Assembly (NCBI GenBank): GCA_023150915.1 | Contig: JAKLKA010000053.1 | Span: forward strand, 1 to 42,502 | Source of the DNA: Polyangiaceae bacterium | GTDB lineage: Bacteria; Myxococcota_A; Polyangia; Polyangiales; Polyangiaceae | DNA length: 42,502 nt | Direction: 5' to 3' | Shown here: positions 12,019 to 21,375 of the stretch, in pieces | Position numbering within the stretch: position 1 is the first letter of the stretch | Layout of the letters: every line of letters starts with the position of its first letter | Notes under the pieces: model-generated | Databases searched by the model: none | Seen by the model: only the letters and a program-made list of their open reading frames with translations | Told to the model about the DNA's origin: nothing | Made by a program: the position numbers and the translations under genes

Positions 12019-13274
12019 GAGTTCCGTTCCTTCCCGAGTGCCTGCGCCACGCTCGCGGCCAGCAGAGCCGGCTCGGCCCAGGGCAGGTCGCTGCCCGCCC
12101 GGTCGGCCACACGCTCGAGCCGTGCGCTTCCAGCCCCCAGCGTGAGCACGTGGCTGAAGTGCCAGGCACGCGCGTGCTCCCAGATTTCTCGCGGCGCTTC
12201 GGTCGCGCTGACCCCCAGAGCGCGCAGGGCCGAAAGCACCCGCGCGTCACCGGCCACCAAGACGCGCGGCGCCGGGCGTGCGGACGACTCGCCGAGCGCC
12301 CAGCTCAGGTGGTCGAGGGCGACCGCGAAGCCCGCCGCCGGCCGCGGCGCCCCGAACAGACCGAGCAGGCCGTCGTAACGCCCGCCGGCGCCGACGGCGG
12401 CGCCCGGGCCCTCGGCCAGGATCTGGAAAGTCACGCCGGTGTAGTAGCCGAGATCGCGCACTTCTCCGAGATCCACCACGATCGCCGGCGCCAGCTGCGA
12501 GCGAGTGGCCCGCTCCCACACCTGTTCGAGCTCGTGGAGGCCGGGCCCGGCCGGACCGGCGGCGAGCACGCGCCGCGCCTCGGGCCAGATCTCGGCGCCG
12601 CCGCAGAGCTCGGTCAGCGCCGACAGGGCGCGCGAAAGCCCAGCCTCGAGCCCGGCGCGCTTCGCTCGCCGTTCGAGCTCGGCAGAGTCCTTCTGCGTCA
12701 GCGCCTCGGTCAGCCCCCAGCGCGCGGGCTCGGGGCAGGCTTCGAGCAGTGCGCCGGCAACGCGAGCGTGCCCCAGATCGAGCACGAACTGCCCGAGCCC
12801 CGCCCGCCCCAGGGCCGAACACGCGACCTCGAGCACCTCGAAATCGCCGTCGGGCGCCGCACTGCCGATCAGCTCGATGCCGGCCTGGGGGATCTGGCGA
12901 TGACGTCGCGCTCGCTCGCGCCGCAGGCGCACCACCGAGCCTTCGTAGGCCAGGCGTGCAGGCCCCGGCGCGTCCCCGAGCCGGGTGGCGACCAGGCGCG
13001 CAATCTGCGGGGTCATGTCGGGGCGCAGCGCCACGACCTCGCCCGATTCGGGCTCGACGAAGCGCAGCACCTCGCGCGGATCCAGCGCACCCAGACCGCG
13101 CTCGAGCACCGCCGCATACTCGAACACCGGAACCGTCACGCGCTGGTAGCCGAACAGCTCGAAGCTGGCCATCAGGCCCCGGCCCAACGCCGAGAGCGCC
13201 CGGCTCTCTTCCGGCAAGAGATCGCGCATCCCGGCGGGCAGCGGGTGCGCGAGGCTGTCGTCGCTCGGACGCAT
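12015..13274 (-). CDS. hisZ: ATP phosphoribosyltransferase regulatory subunit
   Basis: A 419-residue HisRS-like protein without tRNA-ligase function. In the family HisZ binds short-form HisG and allows its activity and histidine feedback in the first step of histidine synthesis. Visible features are HPLPAGMRDLLPEES (10-24), RPDMTPQIARLVATRL, YEGSVVRLRRERARRHRQIP, QAGIELIG and GGRYDGLLGLFGAPRPAAGF. The catalytic Arg-containing motif 3 of true HisRS and the C-terminal anticodon domain pattern are not recognisable, favouring HisZ. Its presence implies that the genome encodes a short HisG elsewhere. The ATG at 13274 is the first of a minus-strand pair with purA. True HisRS is the main alternative but fits less well. 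Confidence 0.88.
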
Positions 13275-13350
13275 GGCAAAAGGCGCCGGAGCCTAACATG
13301 ACGGGCCCCCGGGGCTGCCAGGCCGAGGGCTTTTGAGCTACGAAACGGGG

Positions 13351-14097
13351 ATGAGTCACGGAGCCCCCGAGTCTTCTGGCGTGGACGTGCGCGAGCGTGG
13401 CGCCGCGAAGGACGGCGTCCCTCAGACGCTGGACCAGCGCTTGTTCATGCAGCTCACCTGCTTTCAGTGCGGGCCCACCCTGCCGCCGCCGCGGGCCGTC
13501 GAGCGACTGGCGGCGCGCCTCGAGAGCGCGGGCATGCCGTCGGTGATCTACGAAGACGTGAATCACCCCCGGGGCGTGGCGGTGCTGGGCTTCTCCGAAG
13601 ACCCGGCAGACTTCGTCGAGAAGCTCCGGCCCGCCAGCAGCGACGAAGAGCTGGTGGGGCTCGCCGTGCGCCCCGAGCTCGGGATGATCGGGCGCACCTA
13701 CTCGACCGGGTTCGAGCAGGACCTGGCGTTCTGGCTCCTCGAGCGACCGCGCGCCACGGTGCTCAACGCAGCCTGGCCCTGGGCCATCTGGTATCCGCTG
13801 CGGCGCAAGGGCGAGTTCGAGCGACTCGATCCGAAAGAGAAGGCGGGCATCATGCGCGAGCACGGCGGCATCGGCCGCACGTACGGCGACGCGGATCTGG
13901 CCCACGACGTTCGCCTGGCGTGCCATGGCCTCGATCAGGCCGACAACGACTTCGTGATCGGCTTGGTCGGCAAAGAGCTGTTCCCGCTCTCGCACGTGGT
14001 GCAGTCGATGCGACGCACGCGCCAGACCGCGGAGTACATGGAGAAAATGGGCCCGTTCTTCGTGGGCCGCGCGGTGTGGCGCCACGCGGGCCGCTGA
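13351..14097 (+). CDS. chlorite dismutase / HemQ-like haem protein
   Basis: A 248-residue member of the chlorite-dismutase superfamily, which includes coproheme decarboxylase (HemQ/ChdC). The C-terminal half aligns by eye with that family: IWYPLRRKGEFERLDP (146-161), then KAGIMREHGGIGRTYGD (164-180), where His171 would be the proximal haem ligand, and QTAEYMEKMGPFFVGRAVWR (225-244). Tyr148 sits where HemQ has its catalytic Tyr (YPMSK), but the following Lys is an Arg here. The first 30 residues are a polar extension. The ATG at 13351 has ACGGGG just upstream; an in-frame TTG at 13333 is less likely. The HAD gene starts 5 bases after it. No other haem gene is near, so the substrate is uncertain. 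Confidence 0.78.
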   Translation: MSHGAPESSGVDVRERGAAKDGVPQTLDQRLFMQLTCFQCGPTLPPPRAVERLAARLESAGMPSVIYEDVNHPRGVAVLGFSEDPADFVEKLRPASSDEELVGLAVRPELGMIGRTYSTGFEQDLAFWLLERPRATVLNAAWPWAIWYPLRRKGEFERLDPKEKAGIMREHGGIGRTYGDADLAHDVRLACHGLDQADNDFVIGLVGKELFPLSHVVQSMRRTRQTAEYMEKMGPFFVGRAVWRHAGR

Positions 14098-14102
14098 AGC
14101 CG

Positions 14103-14765
14103 ATGCGGGTCGTCTTCGACCTGGACGGGACGCTGGTCGACTCGCGCGCGGACATCGTGAGCGCCACGAACTTCGCGCTCGCCGCCGCCGGCCGACCGCC
14201 GCTGCCCGACCGGGTGGTGACCGGCTACATCGGCGACGGTGCCCGATCGCTCATGGCACGGGCCGCCGGGCTGCCGGAGCACGATCCGGCTGTCGAGCCG
14301 TTCCTGCGCTCGTTCCTCGACCATTACAGCGACCACGCGACGGAGCGCACGCTTCCGCTGCCGGGTGCGGTGGCGGTGCTCGAGACACTGCGGCAGACGG
14401 TGCCGCTGGCGCTGTGCACGAACAAGCCCCGGCGGACCACCCTGCGCGTGCTCTCGGCGCTGGGCCTGCGCGGCTACTTCTCGGCGCTGGTTTGCGGCGA
14501 CGATCTCCCCGAGCGCAAGCCGCATCCGGCGCCGCTGCTCGCCATCGGCGAGCGCCTGCGCTGCTCGGTGCACGCGATGGTGATGGTGGGCGACGGGCCG
14601 CAAGACGTCGAGTGCGCCCAGCGCGCCGGCGCGCGCAGCGTCGGCGTGGTGGGGAACATCGCCCCCCGAAGCGCGCTCGAGCAAGCTGGGCCCGACGCGC
14701 TGATCGGCAGCCTGGCCGAGCTTCTGCCCCTGCTCTATCGCTGGGGTCAGGCGACCAAGAGGTGA
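14103..14765 (+). CDS. gph: HAD-superfamily phosphatase, phosphoglycolate phosphatase-like
   Basis: A 220-residue hydrolase of HAD subfamily I. Motif I is VFDLDGTLVD with Asp6 as nucleophile and Asp8 as acid/base. Motif II is the CTNKP Thr at about 106, motif III the Lys in ERKPHP (137-142), and motif IV is GDGPQDVE (163-170). The helical cap at about 15-85, with a GYIGDGARSLMARAAG segment, matches Gph. Phosphoglycolate phosphatase clears 2-phosphoglycolate formed during DNA end repair, but substrate preference cannot be read from sequence. The ATG at 14103 follows the previous stop by 5 bases, so the two genes are probably one operon. The last 19 bases overlap the convergent PATAN-J gene. 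Confidence 0.85.
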   Translation: MRVVFDLDGTLVDSRADIVSATNFALAAAGRPPLPDRVVTGYIGDGARSLMARAAGLPEHDPAVEPFLRSFLDHYSDHATERTLPLPGAVAVLETLRQTVPLALCTNKPRRTTLRVLSALGLRGYFSALVCGDDLPERKPHPAPLLAIGERLRCSVHAMVMVGDGPQDVECAQRAGARSVGVVGNIAPRSALEQAGPDALIGSLAELLPLLYRWGQATKR

Positions 14766-15448
14766 TAGGCCGCGCTCAGCGCGGCGAAGCGCGCGAGCAA
14801 CGAGGCACGCTCGGGTCCGGTGGCCTGGGGGTGCCGGTCGGGGTGGACCGACGACGCCAGGCTGCGAAACGCGCGCTGCACCGACGCAGGGCTGGCATCG
14901 GGGCCCAAGCCCAGCACCGCCAGCGCCTGGGCGCGCGCGCGGTCGCGACCGGCCCCCGAGCGCGGGCGCGCCGGCCCCGCGGCGTCGCGCTTGCGCGGCC
15001 GACCGTGCAAGAACTCTCGCGGCGAGAGCGGGATGGTGCGCTCTCTGGGCGGTCGCGCCACCCGGAAGCGGATCTCTGCGTCGGGCAACGCGAACAGCGC
15101 GTCCAGCTTGTAACGCAGCTGGCGCCGAAGCGCGGCGCCCAGGGCGCTGCCCGCGAGCGCGGCATCCTCGACCAAGATCTGCCCGGCCTTGCGCCCCGGC
15201 GATCGCATGAGCTCGCGCTCCAGGTGGCGGAGCGCGTCGTGGCCGATGAACCCCTGCTCGGCCAAGATACGCCCCACGCGCGGAACCACCAGCGAGCTCT
15301 CGACGCGCGACACCAGGCCCGCCTCGAAGTGGATCCGATGCGTCCGCCCACCCTCGATCAACTCCAGCACTCCGCTGGCGCGCTCGCGATGCACGTTCCC
15401 GATCAGATCACCGAGGGTGGTGGCGGAAAGACGGCCAACGAGCCGCAT
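14747..15448 (-). CDS. PATAN (DUF4388) domain fused to a C-terminal J-domain
   Basis: A 233-residue two-domain protein. Residues 1-130 resemble DUF4388 (PATAN): LVGRLSATTLGDLIGNVHRE, then SGVLELIEGGRTHRIHFEAG and a PRVGRILAEQGFIG segment. This fold is common in myxobacterial signalling proteins and is thought to mediate protein interactions. After a basic Arg-rich linker (about 133-172) comes a J-domain: ALAVLGLGPDASPASVQRAF with the HPD at 202-204 and closing helix ARFAALSAAYHLL. J-domains stimulate Hsp70 ATPase through HPD. The protein could therefore direct DnaK to a signalling partner; that is inference. It starts 9 bases after the MerR-type gene in the same direction. Its 3' end overlaps gph by 19 bases. 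Confidence 0.8.
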   Translation of the reverse strand: MRLVGRLSATTLGDLIGNVHRERASGVLELIEGGRTHRIHFEAGLVSRVESSLVVPRVGRILAEQGFIGHDALRHLERELMRSPGRKAGQILVEDAALAGSALGAALRRQLRYKLDALFALPDAEIRFRVARPPRERTIPLSPREFLHGRPRKRDAAGPARPRSGAGRDRARAQALAVLGLGPDASPASVQRAFRSLASSVHPDRHPQATGPERASLLARFAALSAAYHLLVA

Positions 15449-15457
15449 GCCTGCGAA

Positions 15458-16885
15458 TTACCGCGTGGGCCCGCTCTCGGCCAACATCTCGAGGCTTTCG
15501 GCAGTCCGCCCGATGGGACCGCTGGGGTCGATCGCCATGGCCCGCGCGAGCTGGGCGCGCGCCTCGGCCGGGCGCCCGTGCTCGAGCAACGTGCGCCCCA
15601 GCGCCAGCCGCGCGTTGGCCTCGATCCGCGCGTGGGCGGCGGGGTGCAGGTGACCGGGAGAGCCCAGGACCACCCCCAGCGCCGCCTCGAGATCTCGGAT
15701 CGCCAGCGGGCGCCGGCCCAGCGCGCGCGGCAAGGCGAGCGCCACCAGCCCGCGGCGTAGAAACCCCAGAGCGGACGCCAGCGGATCGGCGTCGCGCCCC
15801 GGATCCGCGCCGAACAGGCGCCCCAGGGCCGGGACCACGCGCTCGAGCAGGCCCTCGCCCGCAGCGTTCTGGCCGAGCGCACGCCCAAGCGCTGCCTCGG
15901 CGGCGAGCACCTCGCCCAGGGGAAAGCTTCCGGCCCGAGCCAGGATCGCGTCGAGCTCGGCCCCCTCTTTGCTGGCTGCCACGATCAACTCGGCCCGGGG
16001 CCGGAGCAGGCCGCGCACCGCCGCTGGCAGCCGGGTCAGGTCGCGCATCGGCCCCACGGCGAACAGGTGCCAGACCAGGTCGTTTGCCTTCGCCGGATCG
16101 CCCTGGCGAGCACCTGCTGCCAGCTTTGCTCGCTGATCGTCGGCACCCAGCCGCGCCGACAGCTCGACCCCCAGCGGCAGCGGGCTCGCACTTCCGACCC
16201 GCGAGGCGGCGTCTCGAACGGCGGCGATCAGCGCTTCGACGATGCGGCGCAGGCTGAGATCGCGGTAAGCCGCGATGAAGCGCGCCACCGCCGAGCGCCC
16301 GGCCCGCAGGGCCGCCACGGGCTCGGTCATCTCGCCGCTCCGGATCACCAGGTCGAAGAACACGCCGGCCTCGGCTTCGACCAGCGCACCCACCCGCGGC
16401 GCGCTGACCCGCAAGTCCTCGAGGGTGAGATCCCGCGCTGGGCCCTCGAGCGCGACCACCTCGGCCACCGTGGCCAGCACCCGAGCCACGGTCGGATCTT
16501 CCGCGCTCTCGCCCGGAACGATGACGCCCAGCTCGCGAGCCACCCGGCCGACTTCTTCATCCGCCACCACGGCGGTCGCCTGCCCGGCGCCCAGGTGCGG
16601 ATCGATGCGCAGCACGTCGGCCAGCGTGTCCAGATCGCGCCCCGCGGGGTGCTCGAGCCCTGCGCGAAGAACGCTGCGGATCACCGCGACTGGCAAGTAC
16701 TTTTCTTCGCGTAGCTGGCGCACCAGGCGGAGCCGCTCGAGGTGCGCTTCGTCGTACAGCGCCTGGGTCTTCCCCTGCCGGCTGGGGGCGGGCAAGAGCC
16801 CTTCCCGCAGGTAGTAGTGGATGGTTTCGCGGGGTACGCCCGAGAGCCGTTCCAGCTCTGCCATGCGCATCCGCCGGCGCGCCAT
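15458..16885 (-). CDS. MerR-type regulator with very long helical/TPR C-terminus
   Basis: A 475-residue protein, far longer than usual MerR regulators (about 120-280). Residues 7-75 are a MerR winged helix: MAELERLSGVPRETIHYYLR, then ALYDEAHLERLRLVRQLREE with PVAVIRSVLRAG. A helical region follows at about 80-240, with FIAAYRDLSLRRIVEALIAA like the ligand part of TetR/MerR regulators. The remainder is helical and ends in a TPR-like unit (ARIEANARLALGRTLLEHGR, PAEARAQLARAMAIDPSGPI). No metal-binding Cys pair is seen, so an organic signal or protein partner is more likely than a metal. The ATG at 16885 shares its base with the stop of the secreted-protein gene (TGATG); an ATG at 16870 is an alternative. 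Confidence 0.75.
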   Translation of the reverse strand: MARRRMRMAELERLSGVPRETIHYYLREGLLPAPSRQGKTQALYDEAHLERLRLVRQLREEKYLPVAVIRSVLRAGLEHPAGRDLDTLADVLRIDPHLGAGQATAVVADEEVGRVARELGVIVPGESAEDPTVARVLATVAEVVALEGPARDLTLEDLRVSAPRVGALVEAEAGVFFDLVIRSGEMTEPVAALRAGRSAVARFIAAYRDLSLRRIVEALIAAVRDAASRVGSASPLPLGVELSARLGADDQRAKLAAGARQGDPAKANDLVWHLFAVGPMRDLTRLPAAVRGLLRPRAELIVAASKEGAELDAILARAGSFPLGEVLAAEAALGRALGQNAAGEGLLERVVPALGRLFGADPGRDADPLASALGFLRRGLVALALPRALGRRPLAIRDLEAALGVVLGSPGHLHPAAHARIEANARLALGRTLLEHGRPAEARAQLARAMAIDPSGPIGRTAESLEMLAESGPTR

Positions 16886-17295
16886 CAGGACGAAGGCCCA
16901 ACCTCGACGCGCGCGCTGACGGATCGAGCGTGCGGCGAGCACAGCTCGCGACCCCCGGCGCCCGGCTCGCACGCGACATAGCGCGCGCGGACCACGAGCT
17001 CACCGGCGCCGGTGGACGTGGCTGCCAGCGCCAGCGGCAGGCGCAGGCGACGCGGAGTGCCGCCGGTGGCGCTGCGAGGCCCGACGCGGGTACGCAGCGC
17101 GCGGGCGAAGCCGGGCGTGCCCACGACCAGTGCGTCGGCCCAGGCCAGGCGCCCCCGGGGAACCTCCACCTCGAGCTCGCAGAGCACGCGCCCCGGTGCG
17201 GACTCGCGGCGGCACGAGAGCCGCGCGTCGTCGGCCGCCGTTTCGGCCGAGGCGGGCAACGTGCACAGAAACACCACCGCCAGAGCCTTGCGCAT
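16885..17295 (-). CDS. small exported protein of unknown function
   Basis: A 136-residue protein with a signal peptide, MRKALAVVFLCTLPASA, cut before ETAADD. I do not recognise the mature part. It is beta-strand rich (VLCELEVEVPRGRLAWADAL, RLRLPLALAATSTGAGELVV) and contains four cysteines in two pairs, in LSCRRESAPGRVLCE and CEPGAGGRELC. These could form disulfides in the periplasm. The frame is open 48 codons upstream, but the ATG at 17295 starts the signal peptide. Its stop shares one base with the MerR-type start, so the exported protein and the regulator are translated together. The lipid kinase stop lies 46 bases upstream. A sensor-regulator relation is only a guess. Confidence 0.65.
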   Translation of the reverse strand: MRKALAVVFLCTLPASAETAADDARLSCRRESAPGRVLCELEVEVPRGRLAWADALVVGTPGFARALRTRVGPRSATGGTPRRLRLPLALAATSTGAGELVVRARYVACEPGAGGRELCSPHARSVSARVEVGPSS

Positions 17296-17341
17296 CACCT
17301 CCGATGATGCCGGAAAGGCCCTTGGGATTCCTACCGAAAAG

Positions 17342-18385
17342 TCAGCTGGCGCTCGGCGGCGCGTAGAAGTCGACCAGGCGAATCGGCTCGCGCGACACCC
17401 GCGCCCGCACCCGAGCGCGCTCGCCGCGGGGGTCGCCACCGATCTGGAACTCGGTGGGCGGGTCCATCTCGATGGTCACGGCCTCGACCAGGTAGTCGAA
17501 CACCAGGTTCGGATCGTGGTACTCGCCCCGCCAAATTGCCGGGAAATTCCGCACGAATCCCAGCGAGCTGATGGTGGAGACCCTGAGCTGCATGCGGCCG
17601 GGCTGCTCGTCGGCAAAGGGGAACATCCGAAACCCGAAGCCGTAATACTGGATGGTCGCGAGCCCGACGATGCGCGCCGGCCCTTCGTAGATGGTCTCGC
17701 CCTGGGCGATGGGCTGCCCGACTCGACCGCCCTTGTCGCCGATGCGATACGCCTCGGCGCCGTCGTTCCGCACGCGGCAGTGGGGCACCTGCCGGACCAG
17801 GAACTTGGGCAACGATCGCGTCACCGACGAGATCACGTAGCTGAGCCCGCCCGGTGCGTACTTCGCGAACGGGCCCTTCGAGAGGGCGGCTTTGACCTTC
17901 GTGTAGTCGTCGAGCACCACGGCATCCACGCCGAACCCGGCAAAGGGCGCCAAGAAGCCCTCGACGTCCACCAGGCCCAGGGGGCGGCTGCCCGCGTCTT
18001 CGCGCAGCCGCTGAATGTCTGCTGAGAGCCCCCGGCCCTTGGCCCGGCTCGCGCCTGCCACCCAAGCCAGTGCGTTGCCGGTCCCGAGCTTCAGCAAGCC
18101 GAACCGAGGCACCGGCTTGCCCGCCGCCTGGGCTTCACGAACCACTTCGGTGACCATCACGGTGAACGTGCCGTCGCCGCCGCCGGTGAGCACCGTTCCG
18201 TACCCGCGGCTGACCAAGGTGCGGGCGATCTCGCTGGCGTCTTCCAGCCGACGCGACACGAAAAGGTCGCCGCCGAGCAGGATCTGGTCGAGCGTGCTGA
18301 TCACGTCGGCGGTGACGCTCTTGGCGTTGCCGTTGACGACCACGGCGATGCGTTCGCTCGGCGGGGGGACGCTCGGCTCGGTCAC
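17342..18385 (-). CDS. diacylglycerol kinase / lipid kinase family protein
   Basis: A 347-residue cytoplasmic lipid kinase of the DAGK_cat/NAD-kinase-like fold. VVVNGNAKS (15-23) matches the N-terminal NPxSG-like element, and LTGGGDGTF (66-74) is the conserved GGDGT nucleotide loop. LLKLGTGNALAWVAG is the second glycine motif (family GTGNDFAR). The C-terminal part has the family's beta-sandwich, with FQIGGDPRG resembling the DGE region but with GD in place of DGE, which would weaken a key metal ligand. Diacylglycerol, sphingoid base or undecaprenol are possible substrates. The GTG at 18385 precedes VTEPSVPPPSERIAVVV; an ATG at 18424 would add 13 residues and cannot be excluded. It heads the minus-strand run down to the PATAN-J gene. 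Confidence 0.82.
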   Translation of the reverse strand: MTEPSVPPPSERIAVVVNGNAKSVTADVISTLDQILLGGDLFVSRRLEDASEIARTLVSRGYGTVLTGGGDGTFTVMVTEVVREAQAAGKPVPRFGLLKLGTGNALAWVAGASRAKGRGLSADIQRLREDAGSRPLGLVDVEGFLAPFAGFGVDAVVLDDYTKVKAALSKGPFAKYAPGGLSYVISSVTRSLPKFLVRQVPHCRVRNDGAEAYRIGDKGGRVGQPIAQGETIYEGPARIVGLATIQYYGFGFRMFPFADEQPGRMQLRVSTISSLGFVRNFPAIWRGEYHDPNLVFDYLVEAVTIEMDPPTEFQIGGDPRGERARVRARVSREPIRLVDFYAPPSAS

Positions 18386-18458
18386 GTGCCGGCCTGTACC
18401 ACGACCGAGGCGTCGAACCTGCAAAGGGAATTTGGCGCCCGGCCATGGCTTGGACTAC

Positions 18459-18507
18459 GCTCCGAGCCTTCAGGGCTCATGAGCCCCGAAGCGCCCTGAG
18501 CTCCGAG
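18459..18507. promoter_or_regulatory. palindrome flanked by direct repeats; candidate operator or RNA switch
   Basis: GGGCTCATGAGCCC at 18473-18486 is a perfect 14-base palindrome. It extends to CTTC (18468-18471) pairing with GAAG (18488-18491), with only the A/C pair between them mismatched. An exclusive alternative pairing is TCAGGGC (18470-18476) with GCCCTGA (18493-18499). GCTCCGAG occurs directly repeated at 18459-18466 and 18500-18507, flanking the element. It lies in the gap between the divergent lipid kinase and the basic-tailed gene, ending 18 bases before the latter's ATG. Confidence 0.55.
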
Positions 18508-18524
18508 GCCCGGGGGGATGCACA

Positions 18525-19160
18525 ATGGGGAAGAAACCGAAAACCAAAGAGAAATCGGCGCCGACCGCGGCCGCCAAGGCCGACAAGAGCGGGTCGAAGA
18601 AGGGCGCGGCCGCCAAGGCCGCCGCCGCCGAGGCCGACGACAAGCGCAGCGGTCTGCGCGGCGCCGCGCCCTGGGCCGCCCGCCACGCGGCCAAGCACGC
18701 CGCCGAGGCCCGCGCCCGCAACGCCTCCCCCCCACCGCCCGGCAGCGCCCGCGCGACCCTGCGCACCCCCGAGAGCGCGGAGCTCATCAAGGCCAAGATC
18801 GCCGAGCTGCACAACGCCATCGTCCGGATCCGCACGCTGCGCAAGCACCCGAACGAGAAGTTCTACGAGCTGGGGCAGGTGCTGGGCATGATCAAAGACG
18901 GCCGGCTGTACGAGGCCAAGGGCTTCAACTCGTTCGAGGCGTTCGTCGAGCGCGAGGTCGATCTCAGCAAGACCACCACCCTGCGACTCGAGCGGGTGCC
19001 GCGGCTCTTCCACGAGGGTCCGGCGCGCGAGCTCGGGCTCGAAGCCGTCCTGGCCGCGGTCGAGGCCATCGACGCCATCGTGACGGGGCAGCGCGCGCCC
19101 GCAACCCGCGCCCAGCAGGCTGCGGCGCTGCCGCTCAAGCCCCCGACGGGTCGCAAGTAG
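18525..19160 (+). CDS. protein with histone-H1-like basic tail and helical (HTH-like) domain
   Basis: A 211-residue protein. Residues 1-65 are almost only Lys, Ala, Arg, Ser and Glu (GKKPKTKEKSAPTAAAKADK and similar), like the tails of bacterial histone-H1-like proteins, and would bind DNA or RNA without sequence preference. After a Pro stretch (68-74), residues 80-195 form a helical domain: EKFYELGQVLGMIKDGRLYE, then KGFNSFEAFVEREVDLSKTT and LRLERVPRLF. The pattern is reminiscent of small HTH domains with an ELGxxL helix followed by GFxSFxxFVE, as in DUF3102-like proteins, but I cannot assign a family. The ATG at 18525 has a G-rich stretch upstream. obgE starts 15 bases after the stop, suggesting one operon with this ribosome-associated GTPase. 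Confidence 0.7.
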   Translation: MGKKPKTKEKSAPTAAAKADKSGSKKGAAAKAAAAEADDKRSGLRGAAPWAARHAAKHAAEARARNASPPPPGSARATLRTPESAELIKAKIAELHNAIVRIRTLRKHPNEKFYELGQVLGMIKDGRLYEAKGFNSFEAFVEREVDLSKTTTLRLERVPRLFHEGPARELGLEAVLAAVEAIDAIVTGQRAPATRAQQAAALPLKPPTGRK

Positions 19161-19175
19161 CTTGCGGCGCGCCTG

Positions 19176-20189
19176 ATGCGATTCGTCGACGAGTGCACGC
19201 TGCGCGTCGAGGCCGGCAGCGGTGGGCGCGGCGCCGTGGCCTTCCGCCGCGAGAAGTTCCTGCCGTTCGGCGGCCCGGCGGGCGGTGACGGCGGGCGCGG
19301 CGGAGACGTCGTGTTCGTCGCCGACTCGGGCCTGGGCACGCTCTACGACGTGATCCACCTGCGCGTGCTGCGGGCTCACAGCGGCGAGAACGGCGGAGGC
19401 AAGGACATGTACGGAAAGTCCGGCGCCGACGTGGAGCTGCGGGTCCCGCTGGGCACCATCGTGATCGACACCGAACGCCAAGAACGCCTGTGCGAGCTCA
19501 CCCGCCCCGGCGAGCGGTTCGTGGTCGCCAAGGGCGGCAAGGGGGGCCGGGGCAACCGGCACTTCACCACCAGCGTCGAGCGCGCGCCCCGCCGCGCCGA
19601 ACCGGGCGAGCCGGGCGAGCACAAGACCCTGCGGCTCGAGCTCAAGGTGATGGCCGACGTGGGCATCTTGGGCTACCCGAACGTCGGCAAGAGCACGCTG
19701 ATCAGCACCGTGAGCCGCGCGCACCCCAAGATCGCCGACTACCCATTCACCACGCTCGTCCCTCACCTGGGCGTGGTCGCCATCGGCGATCATCGCGGGG
19801 GCCTCGGCAAGAGCTTCGTCTTGGCTGACATCCCCGGGCTCATTCCCGGCGCCAGCCAGGGTGCGGGCCTCGGGATCCGCTTTCTCAAGCACGTCGAGCG
19901 CACGCGCGTGCTCTTGCACCTGGTCACGCTCAGCGACGAGCCGGGTCGCTCTCCCGTGGCGGACTACCACGCGCTTCGGCAAGAGCTGGAGGCCTTCAAC
20001 CCCGAGATGCTCGCACGCCCCGAGGTGGTCGCGATGAGCAAGGCCGACCTGCCCGAGGTGCGCGACGCCTACCCCGAGGTGAAAGCCGAGTTCGACAAGC
20101 TGGGCAAGAGCCTACGGCTGATCAGCGCGGCCACCCACGAGGGCACCGACGATCTGATGCGCGAGCTGCTCGAGCAGTTGCTGGTGTGA
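19176..20189 (+). CDS. obgE: Obg/CgtA GTPase
   Basis: A 337-residue essential GTPase that associates with the 50S subunit and links ribosome assembly to growth. The Gly-rich Obg fold covers residues 1-158 (GSGGRGAVAFRREKF, GGPAGGDGGRGGDVVF, KGGKGGRGN). The G domain has G1 GYPNVGKS (166-173), switch YPFTT (189-193), G3 DIPGL (218-222), G4 MSKAD (287-291, family usually NKxD) and G5 ISAAT (316-320). There is no C-terminal OCT domain or acidic tail; the protein ends just after the G domain, like the shortest members. The Ser for Asn in G4 may reduce guanine specificity. rplU and rpmA, the usual neighbours, are absent; the gene follows the basic-tailed protein by 15 bases. Confidence 0.95.
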   Translation: MRFVDECTLRVEAGSGGRGAVAFRREKFLPFGGPAGGDGGRGGDVVFVADSGLGTLYDVIHLRVLRAHSGENGGGKDMYGKSGADVELRVPLGTIVIDTERQERLCELTRPGERFVVAKGGKGGRGNRHFTTSVERAPRRAEPGEPGEHKTLRLELKVMADVGILGYPNVGKSTLISTVSRAHPKIADYPFTTLVPHLGVVAIGDHRGGLGKSFVLADIPGLIPGASQGAGLGIRFLKHVERTRVLLHLVTLSDEPGRSPVADYHALRQELEAFNPEMLARPEVVAMSKADLPEVRDAYPEVKAEFDKLGKSLRLISAATHEGTDDLMRELLEQLLV

Positions 20190-20195
20190 GGGCGC

Positions 20196-21209
20196 CTAGC
20201 GACTCGACTGCCCCACGCCGTCGAACACCTCGAGCGACGGCAGGTACACCGGGCCTGCCGGCAACCCCGTGCTCGCGGCCATCTCGGGCGTGACCACGCC
20301 GTAAAACCCACCCGCGCGCGCCGGCATCTGCGACATCGGTGCGCCGTTGCCGCCGCCGGGCCCCGGGCCGCCCCCGGGCGCAGGCGGACTGCCGGGCCCA
20401 CCACCGCCGGGGCCACCGCCACCGGTGATCACGCCGACGCAGTCCTGCCCGCAGTTCTGGGCCAGACAGCTGAAGGCCTGGAAGGCCTTGATGGCTGCCT
20501 GGAACTTCCCCTGGAAGCACTTGAGCACGCACTGCAAGTTGAAACCGCCGCAGCTGGTGACCGCGCACACCACGCCCTGCGCGCACGCCTTGTCGTTGTA
20601 GCAGGCGTTGACCTGGTTCTTGCAGCTCTGCTCGGCGCACGTCACGCAGTCGGCGATCGGACCGCTGTCGGGGAACGGGAACGCGTCGAAGAAGTTGCCG
20701 CCGTCTTTGCCGCCGGTGCCGCCGCCGCCGAAACCCCCGAAGCCACCGGGACCGCCGTCGAAGCCCCCCGTCGCCCCCGTACCGCCCTGACCCCCGGTCG
20801 CGCCGAAGCCGCCGGTCGCGCCGAAGCCGCCGGTCGCGCCGAAGCCGCCGGTCGCGCCGAAGCCGCCGGTCGCGCCGAAGCCACCGGTCGCGCCGAAGCC
20901 GCCGGTCGCGCCCGTGCCCCCCGTGGCACCGACCCCGCCGCTGCCGCTGCTGCCCGCCACGCCACCGAAGCCGCTGCTGCCCGCCACGCCACCGAAGCCG
21001 CTCGCGCCCGCCACGCCACCGAAGCCGCTCGCGCCCGCCACGCCGCCGAAGCCGCCCGTGCCCCCCTGACCGCCGCCGTCGATCGTGCCCGTACCGCCGA
21101 GGCCGCCGATCCCTGGCAGATCGAGCTCGTCTTCCATGTCCGAGCGCCCGCAGGCAACGAAAGGAAGCGACAACAGCACCGCACTCGTGAGGACCACCCG
21201 GGCTCGCAT
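20196..21209 (-). CDS. Gly-rich repeat lipoprotein with Cys-rich domain
   Basis: A 337-residue lipoprotein. MRARVVLTSAVLLSLPFVAC gives a lipobox FVAC (Cys20). Residues about 32-175 are a Gly linker with repeated SGFGGVAGA units and then six GATGGF units. Residues about 190-260 hold a Cys-rich domain (CVTCAEQSCKNQVNACYNDK, CAQGVVCAVTSCGGF, CVLKCFQGK, FSCLAQNCGQDC) that must be disulfide-bonded, typical of myxobacterial surface lipoproteins. A second Gly/Pro stretch and a short C-terminal domain follow. The frame is open 38 codons upstream but the signal begins at 21209. Its stop lies 6 bases past the obgE stop, so the genes converge with no room between them. The function is unknown; surface display is inferred. 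Confidence 0.78.
   Translation of the reverse strand: MRARVVLTSAVLLSLPFVACGRSDMEDELDLPGIGGLGGTGTIDGGGQGGTGGFGGVAGASGFGGVAGASGFGGVAGSSGFGGVAGSSGSGGVGATGGTGATGGFGATGGFGATGGFGATGGFGATGGFGATGGFGATGGQGGTGATGGFDGGPGGFGGFGGGGTGGKDGGNFFDAFPFPDSGPIADCVTCAEQSCKNQVNACYNDKACAQGVVCAVTSCGGFNLQCVLKCFQGKFQAAIKAFQAFSCLAQNCGQDCVGVITGGGGPGGGGPGSPPAPGGGPGPGGGNGAPMSQMPARAGGFYGVVTPEMAASTGLPAGPVYLPSLEVFDGVGQSSR
20801..20908 (-). repeat. six tandem 18-bp repeats in the lipoprotein linker
   Basis: Six consecutive 18-base units begin at 20801, 20819, 20837, 20855, 20873 and 20891 (plus-strand unit CGCCGAAGCCGCCGGTCG). They are identical apart from one base in the fifth. They encode GATGGF on the minus strand. Slippage would change the linker in frame. 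Confidence 0.95.
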
Positions 21210-21375
21210 TGCGGAAACAGGGTAGCACGCAAGCGCGGCGGCGGCGGCGAGGCCGAATTCCCAGGCCTCCGGCGGCTGGCGAAGCGGCATCGCACCCCGT
21301 GGCCGAGCGGGTGTGCCGGGCATGCCGGGTATCGAGCGCCTGGGGTGACGACAGGGCCCGGTGCCCGAACCCGCG

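Follow-up and report, generated by a model that had tools for sequence, protein, structure and literature searches.

A possibly composite four-gene run in a Polyangiaceae genome with a candidate core pair of a PATAN-J-domain protein and an exported four-cysteine protein

The four-gene run

We analysed a stretch of 42,502 nucleotides from a Polyangiaceae bacterium (the window: contig C277 of a genome of 8.0 Mb in 295 contigs; GenBank assembly GCA_023150915.1, JAKLKA010000053.1) and in particular a run of four genes on its minus strand. In order, these encode: a YegS/DAGK-type lipid kinase (17342..18385; GTG start, 347 aa; DAGK_cat domain, GGDGT motif), a small exported protein that we call SEC (16885..17295; 136 aa; a signal peptide and a predicted immunoglobulin (Ig)-like beta-sandwich with four invariant cysteines), a MerR-family protein (15458..16885; 475 aa; a predicted DNA-binding part and a long helical C-terminal half) and PATAN-J (14747..15448, open reading frame (ORF) 15448-14747; 233 aa), in which a DUF4388/PATAN domain is fused to a J domain. 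The gaps from kinase to PATAN-J are 46, -1 and 9 bp, and the four genes and their spacing as given in a first-pass annotation agree with the ORFs. The orthologues in G082, a genome of the same genus, stand in the same order and are 86% (PATAN-J), 88% (MerR), 84% (SEC) and 95% (kinase) identical, so that the four genes are not chance ORFs. The explanation that we tentatively favour is that the run is a composite, with the SEC and PATAN-J pair as a conserved core, the MerR gene as an insert and the kinase as a neighbour.

The domain content that the first-pass annotation had proposed was largely recovered in the Pfam scans. PATAN-J matched DUF4388 (PF14332; 51.1 bits, cut-off 25) and DnaJ (PF00226; 31.6 bits, cut-off 27.8), and the kinase matched DAGK_cat (41.8 bits, cut-off 23.6; GGDGT at residue 69). 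SEC, described there as a small exported four-cysteine protein, carries a signal peptide, and its four cysteines (28, 39, 109 and 119) are invariant across 25 homologues. For the protein that had been called MerR/TPR the first half of the name stands (MerR_1, PF13411, 65.5 bits, cut-off 21.6; an N-terminal winged helix), but its TPR matches all fall below the Pfam cut-off (best: TPR_12, 23.3 against 30.1 bits), though most of the C-terminal half (240-470) is modelled with good confidence as an alpha-solenoid. The alignment behind that model was shallow (7 sequences) and the DNA-binding half was poorly modelled.

Genetic context of PATAN-J and SEC

Gene order was compared over 80 non-redundant PATAN-J loci, consisting of the window, 58 loci hand-chosen from order-wide matches and the non-duplicates (21) among 46 named loci, the latter including metagenome-assembled genomes of Polyangiaceae, Sorangium cellulosum, Minicystis rosea and Labilithrix. 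The order-wide matches that were not fetched include G125, G115, G116, G105, G107, G043, G056, G067, G022, G007, G127, G134 and G070; two regions around MerR homologues (L082 and L088) were fetched besides and lie outside the 80 loci.

SEC was found within 2 kb upstream of PATAN-J, on the same strand, in 33 of the 80 loci (L121, L128 and L209, which have less than 600 bp of upstream DNA and show no SEC, are counted as lacking it). Eighteen of these pairs lie in a block A, running from obgE to hisZ-purA and further marked by a chlorite-dismutase-like gene and a HAD phosphatase gene; 14 lie in a neighbourhood B with genes for EF-P, a GTPase, a TPR protein and a MurB-type protein (the names HflX and MurB-type are presumed from the Pfam domains), to which L091, with a divergent SEC, also belongs; and one (L179) lies on a short contig together with the kinase. 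The distance between the last matched residue of SEC and the start of PATAN-J is 41-131 bp in 26 of the 33 pairs, and in the remaining seven the MerR gene (six loci) or an opposite-strand ORF (L086) stands between the two. SEC and PATAN-J may be co-transcribed. By eye, the ORF in L086 reads like a protein kinase.

Among the 34 SEC-bearing loci (L091 included) none combines genes of both neighbourhoods, for the genes tested, and the 15 B loci with SEC have no block-A gene beside them over the length of their flanks. In the SEC tree (34 rows) 15 B rows are separated from 19 A rows with a support of 99/97. In the PATAN-J tree, which comprises 70 of the 80 rows (ten with a best single profile segment of 41-65 residues, the SEC-bearing L213 among them, were omitted), all 22 B rows fall within one clade of 27 rows (support 99/98), and the two trees thus separate the same two sets. 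At the genome level, a strong SEC match, with E no higher than 2e-14, occurs in 32 genomes. Of these, 31 match PATAN-J as well, and in 24 SEC lies no more than 2 kb upstream of PATAN-J on the same strand.

Taken together, a two-gene pair is moderately supported. Its close rival, which we regard as a quite possible explanation, is that there is no functional unit at all: the genes would be inherited neighbours in a slowly rearranging region, and the adjacency of SEC and PATAN-J an ancestral order that was kept by chance and often lost. Plain inheritance would account for the fact that most block-A loci have kept obgE, hisZ, purA and the chlorite-dismutase-like and HAD phosphatase genes near the run, and for the occurrence of the pair in two kinds of neighbourhood only. 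It sits less well with the flanks of A and B, which share no tested gene in the SEC loci, with the short same-strand gaps, and with the fact that SEC stands beside PATAN-J more often than any other tested gene does.

Several observations weigh against the pair. In as many as 47 of the 80 loci, no same-strand SEC lies in the 2 kb upstream of PATAN-J, and 26 loci show neither gene set and no SEC either (for instance in Sorangium, where PATAN-J stands beside a lysine-aminomutase gene). On the tree, SEC adjacency must have changed at least 14 times, L121 and L128 being set aside in this count, and has therefore often been gained or lost; PATAN-J evidently manages without SEC. Two of the 32 SEC genomes (G098 and G126) have SEC in divergent orientation to PATAN-J, and in six it lies elsewhere or PATAN-J is unmatched (G138, G122, G117, G015, G007 and G045). 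In addition, SEC would be exported and PATAN-J cytoplasmic, without an obvious contact between them. Finally, one locus without SEC joins genes of both neighbourhoods: in L125 (genome G112; L125:6209-14193) obgE and the HAD phosphatase gene of A separate PATAN-J from the EF-P and TPR genes of B, and a lipoprotein-like gene of B lies on the other side of PATAN-J. A rearrangement around a stationary pair could accordingly have produced neighbourhood B from A, for which reason we do not call the two neighbourhoods unrelated; the locus makes the pair less likely and mere inheritance more likely.

PATAN-J and its MshEN-like insert

PATAN-J consists of the DUF4388/PATAN domain (residues 5-147), with an MshEN-like helical insert at 57-110, a conserved linker, and the J domain (177-231) with its HPD motif at 202-204. 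The HPD is invariant in all 39 aligned orthologues and the linker around EFLHGRxRxRD is strongly conserved among them. J domains with an HPD motif recruit and activate Hsp70. Passages of two studies describe PATAN as a protein-docking domain that binds the pilus ATPase PilB1 in cyanobacteria (PMC9090330, PMC7690835). Within the 144 genomes of the order, 102 match the protein at E 1e-5, PATAN-only and J-only matches included, and it is present across several Polyangiales families; among 282 genomes of the phylum 40 match at E 1e-8, and at that threshold no full-length match was found outside the order. DUF4388 was not found together with DnaJ or with myxobacteria among the literature matches listed.

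The insert raises the possibility that PATAN-J is a co-chaperone responsive to cyclic di-GMP (c-di-GMP), in which binding of the nucleotide to the insert would switch the recruitment of DnaK. In 31 of the 39 members, the segment 57-110 matches NCBIfam NF053729, a c-di-GMP motif related to MshE, with an E of at most 0.1 (best E 1.1e-9), and in a search of the PDB with the 39-member profile the pilus ATPase PilF (6f8l) ranks first (E 1.4e-13), ahead of any J protein; with the profile of a closer subset of nine members PilF comes third (E 2e-7) and PilB has an E of 2e-6. There is also a precedent in Myxococcus xanthus, for which PilZ-DnaK chaperones are described (PMC10313047), as are four proteins that combine PilZ with a domain of DnaK or DnaJ (PMC8316039).

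Against this stands the state of the motif itself. PATAN-J of the window scores 14.2 bits where NF053729 has a cut-off of 38, and none of six further members scanned singly reaches it (L095 33.2, L071 29.5, L080 26.5, L085 19.6 and L072 18.2 bits; for L108 the family was not listed at E 0.01), so that no member with displayed bits passes, those of the member with the best E value not being displayed. Of the displayed motif scores, the highest is from family f8. At the 12 ligand-contact positions of MshEN, taken from passages of PMC5013675, motif I of the insert is eroded (Gln in 1/39, Arg/Lys in 23/39) and motif II is better preserved (Gly and Gln each in 38/39, Arg/Lys in 20/39); two intact 24-residue MshEN motifs are thus not found in PATAN-J, given the near-complete loss of the motif-I Gln. 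In the Labilithrix-type rows neither Arg is left. Since the first half is degraded, nucleotide binding by the insert is doubtful, the insert may only keep the MshEN fold, and we consider a c-di-GMP-responsive co-chaperone improbable.

Two further proteins deserve mention here. One PATAN-J orthologue (L116:9501-10088) does without most of the insert and retains the N-terminal part of PATAN and the J domain, which is a further point against a role of the insert in nucleotide sensing. Another DUF4388 protein of the window genome (L001:1501-1974) does pass NF053729 (45.4 against 38 bits), while the other three of four further DUF4388 stretches in this genome, of about 100 residues each, have no family match. 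This suggests that the MshEN domain is intact in some PATAN inserts and partly eroded in that of PATAN-J.

The exported protein SEC

SEC of the window has no Pfam family match, and the family as a whole is without a match in Pfam or NCBIfam. Its structure is predicted with confidence (mean predicted local distance difference test score, pLDDT, 91.4) and is all-beta from residue 24. The solved structures among the matches listed are Ig-like and none of them stands out, and we did not assign a named fold: the best Foldseek match has an E of only 4e-3 (complement C3); C3_CUB2, the sole Pfam hint that recurs (3 of the 25 homologues, E 0.019), was not accepted; and Fsx1, the best match in VIA-align (Z 9.6, root-mean-square deviation 3.0 over 94 residues), is one among many Ig-like matches. 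DsbD is not among the VIA-align matches listed, which excludes nothing. None of the 25 SEC proteins matches the N-terminal domain of DsbD (PF11412) at E 1, and a remote relative matches it below threshold (E 0.07 and 0.22 in two versions).

The remote group aligns with SEC at an HHalign probability of 96% over 67 columns. Seven remote relatives, alignable only C-terminally, share the last two cysteines, and three f8/f3 relatives (L166-L168) keep only the first two, in the matching part. This suggests that the cysteines pair as 28-39 and 109-119. A lipoprotein was considered and set aside, no lipobox being seen by eye. SEC is probably an exported Ig-like protein that would be braced by disulphides.

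The MerR-family protein and the lipid kinase

The first-pass annotation had combined all four genes in an envelope-sensing route, in which an exported sensor and a lipid signal would feed the MerR regulator and PATAN-J would supply DnaK. In its favour, the window shares order and tight spacing with two congeners and with two other genera. Its expectation that at least three of the four genes keep their order holds for 17 of the 80 loci: sixteen lie in block A, where housekeeping genes are kept too, and the seventeenth is L179 on its short contig, so that this is mostly inherited gene order. The complete run is present in five of the 80 loci (the window, L069, L070, L074 and L087; in L073 the contig starts too late to show the kinase) and the MerR gene is part of the run in six; the scattering among relatives that the first-pass annotation had named as refuting is thus seen as well.

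Near full-length relatives of the MerR protein occur in 7 of the 144 genomes of the order, its own included, with one partial in addition, and in 5 of the 282 of the phylum sample; the matches in 82 of the 144 genomes at E 1e-10 are mostly via the DNA-binding domain. In G108 the MerR gene directly follows the kinase gene with no SEC between, and PATAN-J is on another contig (L082, L081). As judged from these comparisons, the MerR gene is a lineage-specific insert between SEC and PATAN-J, found in few genera. Cysteine-based metal sensing by its product was not supported, the window protein and its two congeners having no cysteine; four others have two or three.

Upstream of the kinase, in the divergent intergenic region between it and the gene at 18525, lies a palindrome of 24 bp (18468..18491, no strand assigned; 11 of 12 pairs), which could be an operator for the run. 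It has no second copy in the 8-Mb genome, even with three mismatches allowed, and recurs in G082, but is absent from four other MerR-bearing loci (G055, G123, G038 and G108). Of eight loci without a MerR gene, one (G060) has an inverted repeat that is about as strong, and 1 of 60 shuffles reaches it. We regard the palindrome as a candidate operator, a lead only.

The kinase has a different history. At E 1e-30 it is matched in 107 of the 144 genomes (orthologues and distant paralogues), and orthologues at 42-56% occur in families with only partial PATAN-J matches or none found. It lies less than 3 kb from obgE in G072, G130, G133, G136 and G140, genomes in which PATAN-J is megabases distant, on a different contig, or weakly matched or unmatched; in 18 of the 80 loci the kinase is within 7 kb of PATAN-J. 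As it stays near obgE without PATAN-J, and the B loci with SEC hold no block-A gene within their flanks, it was rejected as a partner of PATAN-J; it would be an old neighbour of obgE that here may share a transcript with the run, though not a function. Beyond a shared neighbourhood the four-gene route is not supported, and we hold it to be very improbable.

A gene for a calcineurin-like metallophosphatase stands between kinase and SEC in L074 (3511-4614) and L094 (5164-6285), and the 3' part of one precedes SEC at the contig start of L073 (16-333). In the window, PATAN-J shares its last 19 bp (14747-14765) with the 3' end of the convergent HAD phosphatase gene (14103-14765). A simple scan of 13000-19500 recovered no sigma-70-like promoter, which says little at such a high GC content, and one terminator-like site, on the plus strand and outside the four-gene run. 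Further along, the protein encoded at 20196-21323 has a long repeat rich in Gly, Thr and Phe and, after it, a Cys-rich part; in the three relatives matched, the alignment was confined to the stretch from about residue 207 onwards. With respect to a mobile origin, a plasmid search yielded no near match; phages were not searched.

A possible role for the pair

Within the composite run that we favour, PATAN-J would most likely act as a cytoplasmic J-domain co-chaperone with the role of an adaptor. The PATAN module would bind a specific partner, possibly a pilus or secretion ATPase or unfolded pre-SEC, and the J domain would bring DnaK to this partner and trigger ATP hydrolysis. A physical link between SEC and PATAN-J is conceivable, and the MerR protein is probably a local transcription regulator that was inserted into the operon. 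A more elaborate version, in which PATAN-J is the cytoplasmic half of a signal-to-Hsp70 switch whose PATAN/MshEN module senses c-di-GMP or a pilus/secretion ATPase and delivers DnaK, with SEC as client or envelope counterpart, seems to us unlikely.

The four-gene hypothesis is thereby replaced by a smaller and testable one, concerning a PATAN-J adaptor in several Polyangiales families and an exported four-cysteine family. Besides PilZ-DnaK, a J protein with a PATAN/MshEN-like module would constitute a second, independent link between signalling and Hsp70; the interest is modest if the PATAN module does not in fact receive a signal.

Comparison with known systems

The kinase resembles the YegS/BmrU-type lipid kinases in its DAGK_cat domain and GGDGT motif, and differs in falling below every NCBIfam cut-off listed. 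The MerR protein shares the N-terminal winged helix of regulators with the CadR/PbrR fold, but has no cysteine and some 400 extra residues that are largely helical. The insert of PATAN-J can be compared with the MshEN domain of the MshE/PilB/PilF-type ATPases, a tandem motif of about 53 residues, of which PATAN-J largely keeps the second motif; unlike there, the first is degraded and the whole is inserted in a PATAN domain, a term that does not appear in PMC5013675.

For the PATAN domain itself the nearest parallel is found in the response regulators PixE, PixG and LsiR of Synechocystis, where, according to parts of PMC9090330 and PMC7690835, it serves as a docking module and PixE binds PilB1. 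In these regulators PATAN is fused to a CheY-like receiver, in PATAN-J to a J domain. The scan of neighbouring genes recognised no pilus gene. The Polyangiales presumably correspond to the Sorangineae. In the latter, the PilZ set is reported in part of PMC8316039 to be poorly conserved. Like CsdK1, CsdK2 and the other PilZ-DnaK/DnaJ proteins of Myxococcus xanthus, as described in passages of PMC10313047 and PMC8316039, PATAN-J joins a signalling module to the Hsp70 machinery in a myxobacterium; the module is PilZ in M. xanthus, and here it is PATAN, on a J-domain protein and in another order.

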